Shown here: in pieces, positions 3,384 to 9,953 of the stretch
Numbering within the stretch: the first letter of the stretch is position 1
Layout of the letters: each line of letters starts with the position of its first letter
NCBI GenBank assembly: GCA_937128575.1
Contig: CAKZMN010000307.1
Coordinates: 1-10,302, forward strand
Direction of reading: 5' to 3'
Length of the DNA stretch: 10,302 nt
From: an uncultured Alphaproteobacteria bacterium
GTDB lineage: Bacteria > Pseudomonadota > Alphaproteobacteria > Micavibrionales > Micavibrionaceae
Notes under the pieces: model-generated
Told to the model about the DNA's origin: nothing
What the model saw: only the letters and a program-made list of their open reading frames with translations
Database searches by the model: none
Position numbers and translations under genes: made by a program

Positions 3384-4490
3384 TTAGCGCAGATCTAAAA
3401 TAGCTTCTAAAGGACTTAATATATGGCTTGAAATTGCAAACTGATTGTTTCTTAAAAGCTTCTCTGTTTGCGAGGCATTTAAGTAATTCGGCAAAATAAT
3501 TACACCAATAGGTCTTTTCGGGCCTGTTACGCCATATTTGCTCTGTATTAAGCCTGGTTTTTCAAAAATTTGATTGGCTATAAAGCATAGGTCTTTGTCG
3601 TTATTTGCTTTTGCATCATGCGTAAAAATTGTTTCAATACCACGCTCTAACATGCATTTCACAACTTCAGGATCTTTAGTTTTTCTTGGCACTAAATCTC
3701 TTAGTTTCCTTGTATGGGCAAAATGTTTGTCTAAAAACAATGTAACTGAACTCAACTTTATGCATTCATCGGTAATCACATTGTTTTTTCTGGCGAATTC
3801 GATAGCCAAGGGCGGAACATAAACTTGTTCATTCAAGATTTTCTTTTTTAGTTCTCTTTGCTTTTGATTATTGTAAATTCGTTTTTTTGCACTAAGCGGC
3901 GAAAAAACCCGAAGCGTTGATTTCAGCAATTTATTTTGTTTGGTTGCTTTCTCTAATTCAGCATTTACTCTACCCAAAGATTTATTAGCATCATTTTTTT
4001 GTTTTCTATATGGCTTCATAGTTTCTATCTTGTGTAAAAGATCCGCAACATGAAGCTTTTCAAGGTCTTCTGTCTTTATTACTAATTTTTCGCCTTCGTT
4101 TGTAATTCCCGCTTTTTTAAATATTTCAGCAAGAGGGTGCAAAGATGATGGGCAAAGTGTTTTTTCCTCTTCTAAAATACGCGCCAAAGCGTCTGCCATT
4201 TTGATATATGGCAGTTTGGCTTTTGGAACAAAGCCGGTTTCTTGAGGAAGATATTGTTTCTTGGCTTGCGCAGGTTTTTTATTTTGATTGGCCATGTCTT
4301 TTTGACGCAAGTCTGTAAAATGCTTTTTAGCTTTGGATTTCTTCAATAAAAAATCATTTTTGGTTTTCGGTTTTTTATATGGTTCGCCCGCATGTTTTTC
4401 ACGCCTATTTACGGGCGTAAGTGTTTTCGGCTTTTGTGATTTTCTATTCTTGCTCATAAATACTTTGTTGTTATGTATACTAAAAGCCAT
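3384..4490 (-). CDS. Uncharacterised lysine-rich protein with a possible C-terminal PIN-like (DUF5615-like) domain
   Basis: The 368-residue product is not a family I can name with certainty. The first 100 residues hold about 23 lysines and look disordered and basic. Residues 150-222 are charged and helical (possible coiled coil). Residues 250-368 look folded. There LFLDKHF (Asp254), LRDLV, DPEVVKCMLERGIETIFTHD (Asp273, Asp292), DKDL (Asp298, Asp300) and then PIGVIILP follow the order of acidic motifs in DUF5615/PIN-like proteins, a fold related to VapC ribonucleases. That assignment is inference from pattern only. DUF5615 proteins are usually short, so the long basic N-terminus is unusual. 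The gene is clearly richer in A/T and in AAA codons than metE or guaB, suggesting transfer. The ATG at 4488-4490 touches the proposed -10 element, so Met12 (4455-4457) is the likelier start, giving 357 residues. Neither start has a good ribosome site. Confidence 0.75.
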   Translation of the reverse strand: MAFSIHNNKVFMSKNRKSQKPKTLTPVNRREKHAGEPYKKPKTKNDFLLKKSKAKKHFTDLRQKDMANQNKKPAQAKKQYLPQETGFVPKAKLPYIKMADALARILEEEKTLCPSSLHPLAEIFKKAGITNEGEKLVIKTEDLEKLHVADLLHKIETMKPYRKQKNDANKSLGRVNAELEKATKQNKLLKSTLRVFSPLSAKKRIYNNQKQRELKKKILNEQVYVPPLAIEFARKNNVITDECIKLSSVTLFLDKHFAHTRKLRDLVPRKTKDPEVVKCMLERGIETIFTHDAKANNDKDLCFIANQIFEKPGLIQSKYGVTGPKRPIGVIILPNYLNASQTEKLLRNNQFAISSHILSPLEAILDLR

Positions 4491-5825: not shown

Positions 5826-7388
<1,563 letters not shown>

Positions 7389-7397
7389 GAAATTAAT

Positions 7398-7916
7398 TCA
7401 ACAACAAGCCTCTTCTTTATTTTGCTCGAAATCACAGCACTCATTTTTATTTTGCTCGGAATCACAGCACTCATTATAATCGCTACAACAGCGCTTATCA
7501 GTAACGCCGCCCTCTGACACTAACTTAAGGAGAGGAAAGGCATCCTCTAACCAGCCGTTGCGGAAATTATCAGCGGGCTCCTGCGTTGGAATATTGTAAT
7601 GGCGCAAAGACAAGCGTGTCCCTCCCTTTTCTTCGTGCAAAAGAATTTCAACTGTTGTTTGCCCGTCTTCTAAATCAAACATACCACCCCAGGTAAATAC
7701 GATTTTTTCATAGGGTTCTATTTCCGTATATTTTCCAGCGAAATACATGGCGCCACTTTCCGCAGAAACATAAAATTGCCCATCGGGTTTACCCTCTATA
7801 TCAACGATATCTCCGAACCATTGCGCAGCCTTTTCTTGCTGCGTCAAGAAAGAGAAAACAGTCTCCGGCGTTGCCTCAATAAATACACCACATATAATTT
7901 CTAAATTCTCGCTCAT
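7398..7916 (-). CDS. SRPBCC (AHSA1/START-like) protein with cysteine-pair tail
   Basis: Residues 1-135 of this 172-residue protein read as an AHSA1-type SRPBCC domain, a helix-grip fold with a hydrophobic ligand cavity. Visible elements are the opening strand with FIEATPETVFSFLT, AAQWFG, the GKYTEIEPYEKIVFTW hairpin, and the closing helix NFRNGWLEDAFPLLKLV. The natural ligand of such domains is rarely known. Residues 143-172 form a tail unlike the domain, with four Cys-Cys pairs at 143/144, 150/151, 160/161 and 171/172 among Asp, Glu, Asn and Gln. The tail suggests metal or metalloid binding, or redox chemistry, by inference only. Part of it comes from a 30-bp tandem duplication. The start ATG overlaps the arsR stop (ATGA) and follows GAAAGGA by 7 bases, so the pair is one translationally coupled unit. 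ArsR plus SRPBCC gene pairs are common in bacteria, but the cysteine tail is the unusual part. Confidence 0.9.
   Translation of the reverse strand: MSENLEIICGVFIEATPETVFSFLTQQEKAAQWFGDIVDIEGKPDGQFYVSAESGAMYFAGKYTEIEPYEKIVFTWGGMFDLEDGQTTVEILLHEEKGGTRLSLRHYNIPTQEPADNFRNGWLEDAFPLLKLVSEGGVTDKRCCSDYNECCDSEQNKNECCDFEQNKEEACC
7416..7475. repeat. 30-bp tandem duplication inside the SRPBCC gene
   Basis: Two adjacent 30-base copies (7416-7445 and 7446-7475) differ at one base (A at 7429, G at 7459). Each encodes a 10-residue unit of the form NECCD-S/F-EQNK, so the change swaps Ser for Phe. Being a multiple of three, the duplication keeps the frame and adds one Cys-Cys pair. The near-identity points to a recent duplication. 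Confidence 0.97.
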
Positions 7917-8224
7917 TTTTTAGTCCTTTCTTCTGCTTCCGCTAATGTTTTTAATTTTTGTAGTTTGGGGGTCCAAAATTCTTCCAAAAAGGCGCGAATG
8001 TCGCTAAACCCTTTTGTGTTCACGCTGTAATATCGGCGTGTGCCTTCGCGGCGCTCTTGCAATAAATGTTGATCTTTTAGAACGCGGATATGCTGTGACA
8101 CCGCGGGGCGTGTGATATTTTCAAAATTTTCTGCAATTTCCCCCGCTGGTAATTCCTGATCTTTCAAAAGACTAAGAATGGCAAAACGAGTTGGGTCGCT
8201 GATGGCTTGTATTTGTTGTATCAT
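7913..8224 (-). CDS. ArsR-family winged-helix transcriptional repressor, no cysteines
   Basis: The 103-residue product has the full ArsR/SmtB winged helix-turn-helix. ISDPTRFAILSLL (8-20) is the typical opening, ITRPAVSQHIRVLKD (37-51) is the recognition helix region, and the wing is ERREGTRRYYSV (57-68). Family members repress their own operon and let go when a ligand binds. The protein has no cysteine at all, so the ELCVCD-type metal site of ArsR/CadC is absent and a different signal is expected. The ATG at 8222-8224 lies only 6 bases after the -10 element, so there is no room for a ribosome site and the mRNA is probably leaderless or nearly so. The stop TGA overlaps the ATG of the SRPBCC gene. 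The dyad at 8230-8267 is the obvious candidate operator. Confidence 0.93.
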   Translation of the reverse strand: MIQQIQAISDPTRFAILSLLKDQELPAGEIAENFENITRPAVSQHIRVLKDQHLLQERREGTRRYYSVNTKGFSDIRAFLEEFWTPKLQKLKTLAEAEERTKK

Positions 8225-8229
8225 TCTTT

Positions 8230-8267
8230 AATGTTAGTTTAAACTTACGTAAGTGTCAACTAACATT
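8230..8267. promoter_or_regulatory. 38-bp nested dyad, candidate operator of the arsR-SRPBCC unit
   Basis: AATGTTAGTT (8230-8239) and AACTAACATT (8258-8267) are perfect reverse complements. Inside them, on exactly the same centre (8248/8249), is the perfect 12-bp palindrome ACTTACGTAAGT (8243-8254). Across all 19 pairs only 8240/8257 and 8242/8255 fail. ArsR-family dimers bind such dyads. The size and nesting could hold one extended dimer site or two dimers. It covers both promoter elements, so bound repressor would block RNA polymerase. Confidence 0.88.
8231..8259 (-). promoter_or_regulatory. Strong sigma-70-like promoter of the arsR-SRPBCC unit
   Basis: On the minus strand a perfect TTGACA (8254-8259) is followed after exactly 17 bases by TAACAT (8231-8236, 4 of 6). 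The start point predicted 6-8 bases downstream falls on or beside the A of the arsR ATG (8224). The rest of the gap to the preceding gene (8268-8281) is plain A/T-rich sequence. Confidence 0.75.
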
Positions 8268-8281
8268 TTAATTAAATTTTT

Positions 8282-8908
8282 TTAAGCCGCTTTTTGAGGC
8301 TTTTCCATGATCGTTTTGAATAGCGGGCTGTTTAGGTGGCTGTCTAGCCATGCCTGTAATTTAGGGAGGGGCAGCGCGTCGAACCATGTGCGGTCGGTGT
8401 TTGCGAATTGACGGATGAAAGGGAAGATGGCGATATCGGCGTAGGTGATGTGATCGGCGCATAGATATTTGGCGCCGCTGAGGCGGGTGTTTAATTGCTG
8501 CAAATATTCCTCACCCTTATCCCGCGCGCCGGAGCAATCTTCATCTGGATATCGCGTCCCGTATTTATAACGATCCAGAGCGTTTTTAAACCACCCGACC
8601 TGCGATGTGGTGGGATCGATTAGAGTTTTGGCGCCCTCGCCCGCATTTAACCAGCCATCAGGATCATTTTGATTAAGCGCCCAGAGCATGATGTCGATGC
8701 TTTCATCTATCACGCGGCCATCGGCGGTTTGCAGCACGGGGACGCTACCCTTGGGGGAGAGATCATAGAGCGCCGGCGGGCGATCCTTTAGATCGACCTC
8801 GATTATGGTGGGGATTATACCGGATTTCCAAAGCGCCATGCGGGCGCGCATTGCATAGGGGCAGCGGCGAAAATTATAGAGGGTGTGAACGTTTTTATTC
8901 GTCATCAT
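8282..8908 (-). CDS. Glutathione S-transferase family protein
   Basis: The 208-residue protein has a thioredoxin-like N-terminal domain with the RRCPYAMRARMAL motif (Cys16, a glutaredoxin-style CPYA site). GSVPVL (54-59) carries the cis-proline, and DES (68-70) binds the gamma-glutamyl part of glutathione. An all-helical C-terminal domain follows with the ITYADIAIFPF capping box (154-164). Such enzymes conjugate or reduce substrates with glutathione in the cytosol. The substrate cannot be read from sequence. A cysteine rather than Ser/Tyr at the active position suggests thiol transfer or dehalogenase-like chemistry rather than classic conjugation. The first ATG (8906-8908) lies inside the 3' end of rlmE, a 14-base overlap. 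The next codon is also ATG, and AGG/GGAC just upstream could serve either start. It is likely co-transcribed with rlmE. Confidence 0.92.
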   Translation of the reverse strand: MMTNKNVHTLYNFRRCPYAMRARMALWKSGIIPTIIEVDLKDRPPALYDLSPKGSVPVLQTADGRVIDESIDIMLWALNQNDPDGWLNAGEGAKTLIDPTTSQVGWFKNALDRYKYGTRYPDEDCSGARDKGEEYLQQLNTRLSGAKYLCADHITYADIAIFPFIRQFANTDRTWFDALPLPKLQAWLDSHLNSPLFKTIMEKPQKAA

Positions 8909-9608: not shown

Positions 9609-9953
9609 TCACAGAAGCATTACCACGCTAGAGGTGAAAAAAGCCATAAAAAACACTGCAATGGAGCTCGCCATCAGAATAGAGCCGCTATTTTTGGGCA
9701 TATAATGCAGGAAAACCAAATAGAGCATATAAGCGAAGCTGTAAATTATAATGGCGCGGCCAAGCACGGGAATGCTTAAAAAATCGAGAATGCCGATAGG
9801 ATAGTCAATCGCGTACATAAGCTCTGCCTGCATACGGGCCATGAACATACAGGTGATCATAAAAATCAGCACAATCCAGCGTTGATCCTTTTGCACCGTG
9901 AACCACCCCAAAGGCAGCCAGAGCAGGTCTATATATTGAAGAATAAAATTCAT
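9609..9953 (-). CDS. Small hypothetical inner-membrane protein, 114 aa
   Basis: I do not recognise a named family. The protein is strongly hydrophobic, with likely membrane helices at about 26-40, 62-83 and 91-113, and a possible fourth at 3-19. A short charged loop QKDQR (21-25) separates the first two, and HYMPKNSG (83-90) separates the last two. It has no signal peptide and no obvious catalytic motif, and it ends at the last helix. Its stop lies 33 bases before the rlmE start, so it may head a unit with rlmE and the GST gene. The ribosome site is poor (AGGG only 1 base from the ATG at 9951-9953). It is divergent from the gene starting at 10026, and the 72-base gap between them shows no convincing promoter pair. 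Confidence 0.7.
   Translation of the reverse strand: MNFILQYIDLLWLPLGWFTVQKDQRWIVLIFMITCMFMARMQAELMYAIDYPIGILDFLSIPVLGRAIIIYSFAYMLYLVFLHYMPKNSGSILMASSIAVFFMAFFTSSVVMLL

Follow-up and report, generated by a model that had tools for sequence, protein, structure and literature searches.

An eight-cysteine tail on an ArsR-coupled AHSA1 protein of an uncultured alphaproteobacterium, apparently an enlarged form of a tail common in its subfamily

The window, i.e. the whole stretch of 10,302 nucleotides analysed here, comes from an uncultured alphaproteobacterium and carries, between the genes of RlmE and IMPDH, a co-directional pair encoding an ArsR-type repressor and an AHSA1/SRPBCC protein; the arsR stop and the AHSA1 start overlap by 4 bases, 7913-7916 (Table 1). 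The assignment of the latter protein, already proposed in a reading made from the sequence alone (hereafter the sequence-only reading), is confirmed by a PF08327 score of 84.5 bits (cut-off 22.1) and by its predicted structure: the AlphaFold2 model (mf247ef717f08) has a mean pLDDT of 81, falling below 50 in residues 150-172, and Foldseek, queried with this model, has an Aha1 structure as its top match (probability 1.00; TM 0.61 on the query and 0.78 on the target), so that a helix-grip fold is supported at the level of the prediction. The best sequence match among solved structures is the AHSA1-like RHE_CH02687 of Rhizobium etli (PDB 2lak; E 1.6e-20, profile positions 2-126), which is also rank 8 in the Foldseek list; its alignment to the profile of the window subfamily ends, however, before the tail discussed below, and a protein judged by eye to be alike to the 2lak alignment (L063) has the cysteine-free C-terminus AAGRDPGPDSMHGRTG. 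The ArsR scores 76.6 bits against the NCBIfam HTH_metalloreg model NF033788 (cut-off 55); its matches to Csa3 models (best E 9e-18) were taken as general HTH similarity.

Table 1. Features of the window discussed in the text (strand in brackets).
Feature	Position	Strand	Basis or remark
AHSA1/SRPBCC protein, 172 aa	7398..7916	(-)	ORF and PF08327; ATG start overlaps arsR stop
Cysteine tail, Cys143 to stop	7398..7490	(-)	CC pairs 143/144, 150/151, 160/161 and 171/172; relatives have a C-x6-C tail that aligns with it
30-bp unit, copy 1, NECCDSEQNK	7446..7475	(-)	Tandem Repeats Finder array and sequence
30-bp unit, copy 2, NECCDFEQNK	7416..7445	(-)	Tandem Repeats Finder array and sequence
GCT TGT TGT TGA, last Ala-Cys-Cys-stop	7398..7409	(-)	readable as a TTG triplet run
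ArsR/SmtB-type repressor, 103 aa, no Cys	7913..8224	(-)	PF12840 and PF01022 above cut-offs; NF033788
Putative double operator, ATGTTAGTTGACACTTACGTAAGTTTAAACTAACAT	8231..8266	(-)	32/36 positions palindromic
GST-fold protein, CPYA motif in N-terminal domain	8282..8908	(-)	PF13409, PF13417, PF13410

The gene of the GST-fold protein lies upstream and co-directional, between RlmE and arsR; glutaredoxin 2 models match this protein only far below their cut-offs, and at E 1e-10 no match was found in six relatives (one of seven genomes, i.e. that of the window), and the gene probably lies outside the ArsR-AHSA1 module. On the other side, the gap before IMPDH (7320-7397) holds CGTATAACTCACTTGCAAAT, a sequence that precedes IMPDH almost unchanged in a genome of the same genus, G001 (L026), and in similar form in G002 (L027) and G007 (L029); this is perhaps IMPDH's own promoter, in which case the pair need not drive IMPDH. 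Two further proteins of the window are without a family match: a lysine-rich-looking protein of 368 residues (3384-4490(-); neither Pfam nor NCBIfam) and a probable membrane protein of 114 residues adjoining RlmE (9609-9953(-)), homologues of which, at 32-52% identity, lie beside RlmE in six other genomes.

The pairing itself is well conserved: arsR is found directly upstream of the AHSA1 gene at all eight related loci, belonging to two Alphaproteobacteria, Sulfidibacter (Acidobacteriota), one of the Thermodesulfobacteriota and four Nitrospinota records. Among the nine ArsRs compared, that of the window and six of its eight counterparts contain no cysteine at all, and the remaining two contain one each, at different positions. 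The two genes are thus a known two-gene module, described by Makarova, Wolf and Koonin in 2009 as ArsR-COG3832 (AHA1 family), a stable combination of ArsR beside an AHSA1-family gene, with patchy distribution (PMC2701414); the ArsRs of this module are reported there to be devoid of the usual metal-binding motifs; for the window ArsR this comparison covers cysteine, of which it has none. The function considered most plausible by the same authors is antibiotic resistance, with CalC as the example, and the passages of their account devoted to this pair make no mention of a C-terminal cysteine tail (PMC2701414). A literature search found no paper joining SRPBCC proteins with a cysteine-rich C-terminal tail, and a search on vicinal cysteines gave nothing on SRPBCC among the matches listed. 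Other settings were considered and set aside: the AHSA1 protein has no PADLOC match that would link it to defence systems, and none of 25 pattern-matching stretches of viral contigs encodes a relative.

The peculiarity of the window protein lies in its last residues. It contains nine cysteines, namely Cys9 and eight others within residues 143-172, where the sequence reads RCCSDYNECCDSEQNKNECCDFEQNKEEACC up to the stop; the sequence-only reading had correctly singled out the arrangement of these eight as four adjacent pairs, as well as a duplicated 30-bp unit, which Tandem Repeats Finder recovers with a 30-bp period, 2.0 copies and 96% match at 7416-7475. The duplication is in frame, the two copies, which hold the second and third pairs, differing at one base of 30 (Ser in the former, Phe in the latter). 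Given a background of 36 cysteines in 2869 residues (a small sample drawn from nine protein stretches that the window encodes, including the AHSA1 protein without its tail), the chance of at least eight cysteines in 30 residues is about 3e-9 and, if one copy of the repeat is omitted, that of at least six in 20 residues is about 1e-7.

Whether such a tail is an appendage acquired by this protein or part of its inheritance can be judged from its relatives. A first search gave 18 of them besides the query, 17 of which were aligned with it; the profile so obtained, itself containing C143, gave 622 matches, the best 120 of which were taken, making up a set of 121 proteins. Three of the 121 were omitted by length before cysteines were counted at C143, leaving 118 rows; the subfamily set of 112 rows omits those of odd length or truncated or frame-shifted appearance (P0088, P0093, P0094, P0095, P0096, P0099, P0103 and P0118), together with P0019, which was left out of the conservation, of the tree without tail columns and of the tail counts. 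Among the 112 rows kept from the best 120 of 622 matches, C143 is invariant, as are E135 and G136, and most nearby tail columns are variable; before removal of rows, C143 accounted for 114 of the 116 letters in 118 rows, P0093 and P0099 having another letter and P0088 and P0019 a gap at this place. This conservation is partly built in, because the matches were ranked by a profile that contains C143; nevertheless, 22 rows that form a clade apart, with identities of 38-46%, retain C143 throughout (21 with one tail cysteine, one with three), which speaks for C143 as a true mark of the family. Against this, the mark stops where the subfamily does, since four genomes of the class whose proteins match the profile at E 5e-31 to 2e-21 have GPD and no cysteine at that place (five of 385 genomes of the class matched, that of the window included).

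A second cysteine follows six residues after C143 in 77 of the 114 rows that bear the latter. Counted over the last 30 residues, the 112 rows have one cysteine in 26 cases, two in 68, three in 16, four in one and eight in one; the window protein is therefore alone in exceeding four within the rows kept from the best 120 of 622 profile matches, and a tail of eight cysteines common to the whole clade is ruled out within the rows compared. Similarly, 47 distinct AHSA1 ORFs from other loci (47 loci were examined, two of which, L011 and L084, gave no AHSA1 ORF and three gave two, one duplicate protein being counted once) have at most two cysteines in the last 30 residues, and at least one in 22 of the 47. 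As judged from these alignments, the tail of the window protein is an enlarged form of the one- or two-cysteine tail of its subfamily, and did not arise from a tail-less precursor. The general statement of the sequence-only reading that AHSA1-type proteins end after the final helix does not hold for this subfamily, and its picture of a grown tail survives in part: the recent in-frame duplication stands, the new appendage does not. A second protein with a CC-repeat tail, which the same reading had proposed to look for, was not found, as a search with residues 133-172 alone (a search needing shared exact words, over 5.8 billion proteins) returned the window protein itself and nothing else; this protein is a single sequence present on four contigs. 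The low confidence of the tail is also seen in a model of the homologue P0004, where confidence holds up to about residue 140 and lies below 50 from residue 147.

The growth of the tail may be retraced by comparison with the four proteins (P0002, P0003, P0021 and P0022) that group with that of the window (P0001) with support 100/99 when the tail columns are included and an SH-aLRT of 93 when they are not; their tails read SDVNAC or SDANAC, as in RCFSDVNACDSGEVAA. In a putative series of steps, RCF would have become RCC, by a Phe-to-Cys change beside C143; NAC would have become NECC, by the gain of a second cysteine beside the ancestral one; the NECCDxEQNK unit would have been copied by the 30-bp tandem duplication; and two TGT codons would have been added at the end, possibly by growth of the TTG run before the stop, where slippage may have acted. 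Both the order and the mechanism of these steps are to be taken as conjectural. The sequence-only reading had held that homologues in close relatives lacking the tail without phenotype would speak against it; the same-genus genome is without the whole gene, and the four grouping proteins have two or three tail cysteines. The branch leading to P0001 is long (0.38), which would also fit a relaxed constraint.

Tails of this kind are apparently not confined to the window subfamily. At eight loci in other genomes of the order (L004, L005, L006, L008, L012, L013, L015 and L016), a distant AHSA1 group, whose status as a single clade was judged by eye, is preceded by an ArsR gene in every case; in most of these proteins the domain closes with LETGxPLD or a like motif, after which comes a short tail bearing one or two cysteines, as in SACHAGCGDKEAAA and SDCVSSSCA. 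The operator described below was not found upstream of these genes (4-5 mismatches). At least two ArsR-coupled AHSA1 groups thus seem to have gained, or retained, cysteine-bearing tails.

The AHSA1 protein was detected in only three of the 142 genomes of the order, that of the window included (E 1e-15), and its lack in the other 139 indicates that the gene is dispensable. In both other genomes that have it, which belong to the same family, the pair sits between RlmE and IMPDH. In G001, RlmE adjoins IMPDH, with neither the pair nor any trace of the operator; G011 keeps arsR and a single operator site that can be recognised, but is missing the AHSA1 gene. The arsR of the latter genome (L058, 2072-2377(-)), left after the loss of one half of the module, encodes a protein with a different C-terminus. 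Horizontal arrival of the pair is not favoured, given the same RlmE-IMPDH site in the other two genomes; the shared position makes ancestral presence followed by repeated loss the simplest reading.

Immediately upstream of arsR, the window contains two adjacent palindromes, GTTAGT-N4-ACTTAC directly followed by GTAAGT-N4-ACTAAC, each with one mismatch in 12 to GTAAGT-N4-ACTTAC; promoter-like hexamers (TTGACA-N17-TAACAT) lie inside the same stretch, a putative operator and promoter. The pattern GTAAGTN4ACTWAC, written after the site had been seen, has 4 matches, both strands counted, against 0.03 expected. A conserved stretch precedes arsR at all ten loci of the family, the best site in it having one mismatch in 12 at nine loci and two at the tenth, and base shuffles of each upstream stretch were as good as its best site in 0 or 1 of 200 trials. 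By comparison, 20 other ArsR genes, with start codons guessed, show 4-6 mismatches (4-5 in ten from the second subfamily, at eight loci; 5-6 in ten others); in this comparison L022, L013 and L016 had been flagged as uncoupled merely because their ORF starts were called too early, and L058 is the locus without an AHSA1 gene. Both sites are present with at most three mismatches at seven of the ten loci (the window and six others), and an exact TTGACA at five of ten; in OFTM66, OFTM68 and G011, which belong to the bacterial family of the window, the recognisable site is the one proximal to the start codon, the upstream site being unrecognisable. On the scale of genomes, a longer operator pattern allowing up to three mismatches matches only before arsR in G000 (a genome 84% complete), G133 and G134, and has no match in G001 or G011; G133 and G134 are taken as the same genomes as OFTM66 and OFTM68 and hence add no extra evidence.

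The closest described counterpart is the Rv2034-Rv2035 operon of Mycobacterium tuberculosis, in which an autorepressing ArsR stands beside a Polyketide_cyc2/COG3832 gene and for which the footprinted site is CCGTAAGT-N4-ACTTACGG, i.e. a GTAAGT half-site with a 4-bp spacer near the start codon (PMC3338718); the two genes have been named elsewhere as a COG3832-ArsR pair (PMC3968373). The putative operator conserved before arsR in the present family is new here, and at each of the ten loci at least one site in it matches the Rv2034 footprint with one or two mismatches. Differences are also evident from the published description on which the comparison relies: the window has two adjacent palindromes, each off by one of 12 half-site bases; Rv2034 depends on a single cysteine, C61, and the window ArsR has none; and Rv2034 has other targets besides its own operon (PMC3338718). 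We strongly infer that the window ArsR is an autorepressor which binds the one or two conserved palindromes overlying the promoter, with its own operon as main or only target.

As for the role of the AHSA1 protein, the reading that we tentatively favour, at somewhat less than even confidence, is that the tail is a putative disordered arm equipping a ligand-binding domain with thiols. The AHSA1 domain would bind some small compound, hydrophobic or reactive, in the manner of related proteins of the Bet v 1-fold family, where ligand binding is known (PMC2577659), and the flexible tail would supply thiols able to react with the compound, to cycle through disulfides or to hold a soft metal; the extended tail probably adds reactive thiols, and more CC pairs would mean more capacity. 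The combination of a compound-binding domain with a thiol-supplying tail has moderate support. The model for this function is CalC, the calicheamicin self-resistance protein (PDB 1zxf), which is of the same fold class and undergoes a sacrificial reaction with a reactive compound (PMC2701414). Foldseek also matches the predicted structure of the window protein to CalU16 structures; in sequence, however, CalC matches the second subfamily alone (L005, E 2.7e-6) and is not among the eight matches of the window subfamily. A variant, which we consider quite unlikely, would make the pair a split sensor: the AHSA1 partner, through its conserved tail cysteines, would sense thiol stress on behalf of the cysteine-free ArsR, binding or releasing it once these thiols are oxidised, alkylated or bound by metal, and the threshold, set by how many CC pairs there are, could shift by tandem duplication.

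Nearly as likely as a working thiol arm is neutral expansion, a strong rival: function would be limited to the initial one or two cysteines of the tail, and the extra pairs would be by-products of replication slippage, tolerated without selection in the disordered tail of a dispensable gene. The low prediction confidence of the tail in the models of both the window protein and P0004, resembling that of disordered stretches, is in keeping with it, as are the recent duplication and the triplet run before the stop, the sporadic retention of the gene in the order with its absence from G001 and G011, the long branch and the finding, by tail-only search, of a single protein so endowed. Against these, four CC pairs require several separate events, the ancestral second position having also become CC, both frame and domain are intact, and a useless tail of eight thiols would be expected to be costly.

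Vicinal thiols are established ligands of As(III), Hg(II) and Cd(II). From this chemistry, and from the presence of an adjoining ArsR-family repressor, protection against soft metals or arsenicals could be proposed, with the tail as a putative metallothionein-like sink and ArsR as the metal sensor; this we consider unlikely. Most relatives have just one to three tail cysteines, seven of the nine ArsRs (that of the window among them) have none, with no shared position in the other two, and no metal or arsenic resistance protein occurs among the family-matched proteins of the window, where three proteins are without match and metE and an rsmB-like gene were named by eye. Moreover, Rv2034, with its matching operator, is described as unresponsive to Zn, Ni, Co, Cd, Pb, Cu and Mn, although that description names neither arsenic nor mercury, a gap that leaves room for this proposal, and its authors leave other metals open (PMC3338718). 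With a cysteine-free ArsR and a counterpart ignoring those seven metals, nothing found here speaks for an operon devoted to arsenic or mercury, and a dedicated arsenic or mercury role, suggested at the outset, turns out to be the least supported part of the sequence-only reading. Arsenic genes elsewhere were tried as a clue: PF03960 (ArsC/Spx-type) is matched once per genome in the four genomes searched, including the pair-less G001, and is uninformative on the role of the pair.

Finally, a putative toxin-antitoxin pair, with the AHSA1 protein as toxin and ArsR as antitoxin and autorepressor, would suit the self-regulating putative operator, the sporadic loss and the proposal, made from genomic behaviour, that ArsR-COG3832 is toxin-antitoxin-like (PMC2701414), but is very unlikely, as the pair of Stenotrophomonas maltophilia is reported to be non-toxic in E. 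coli and in S. maltophilia (PMC7650669) and the 2009 authors themselves found a resistance role more plausible (PMC2701414).

For ArsR-AHSA1 pairs, which are widespread, the conserved tail cysteine of this subfamily, the natural eight-cysteine version and the conserved operator jointly offer a practical point of entry: thiol reactivity in the AHSA1 tail is directly measurable, and occupancy of the putative operator would serve as the readout for the signal.
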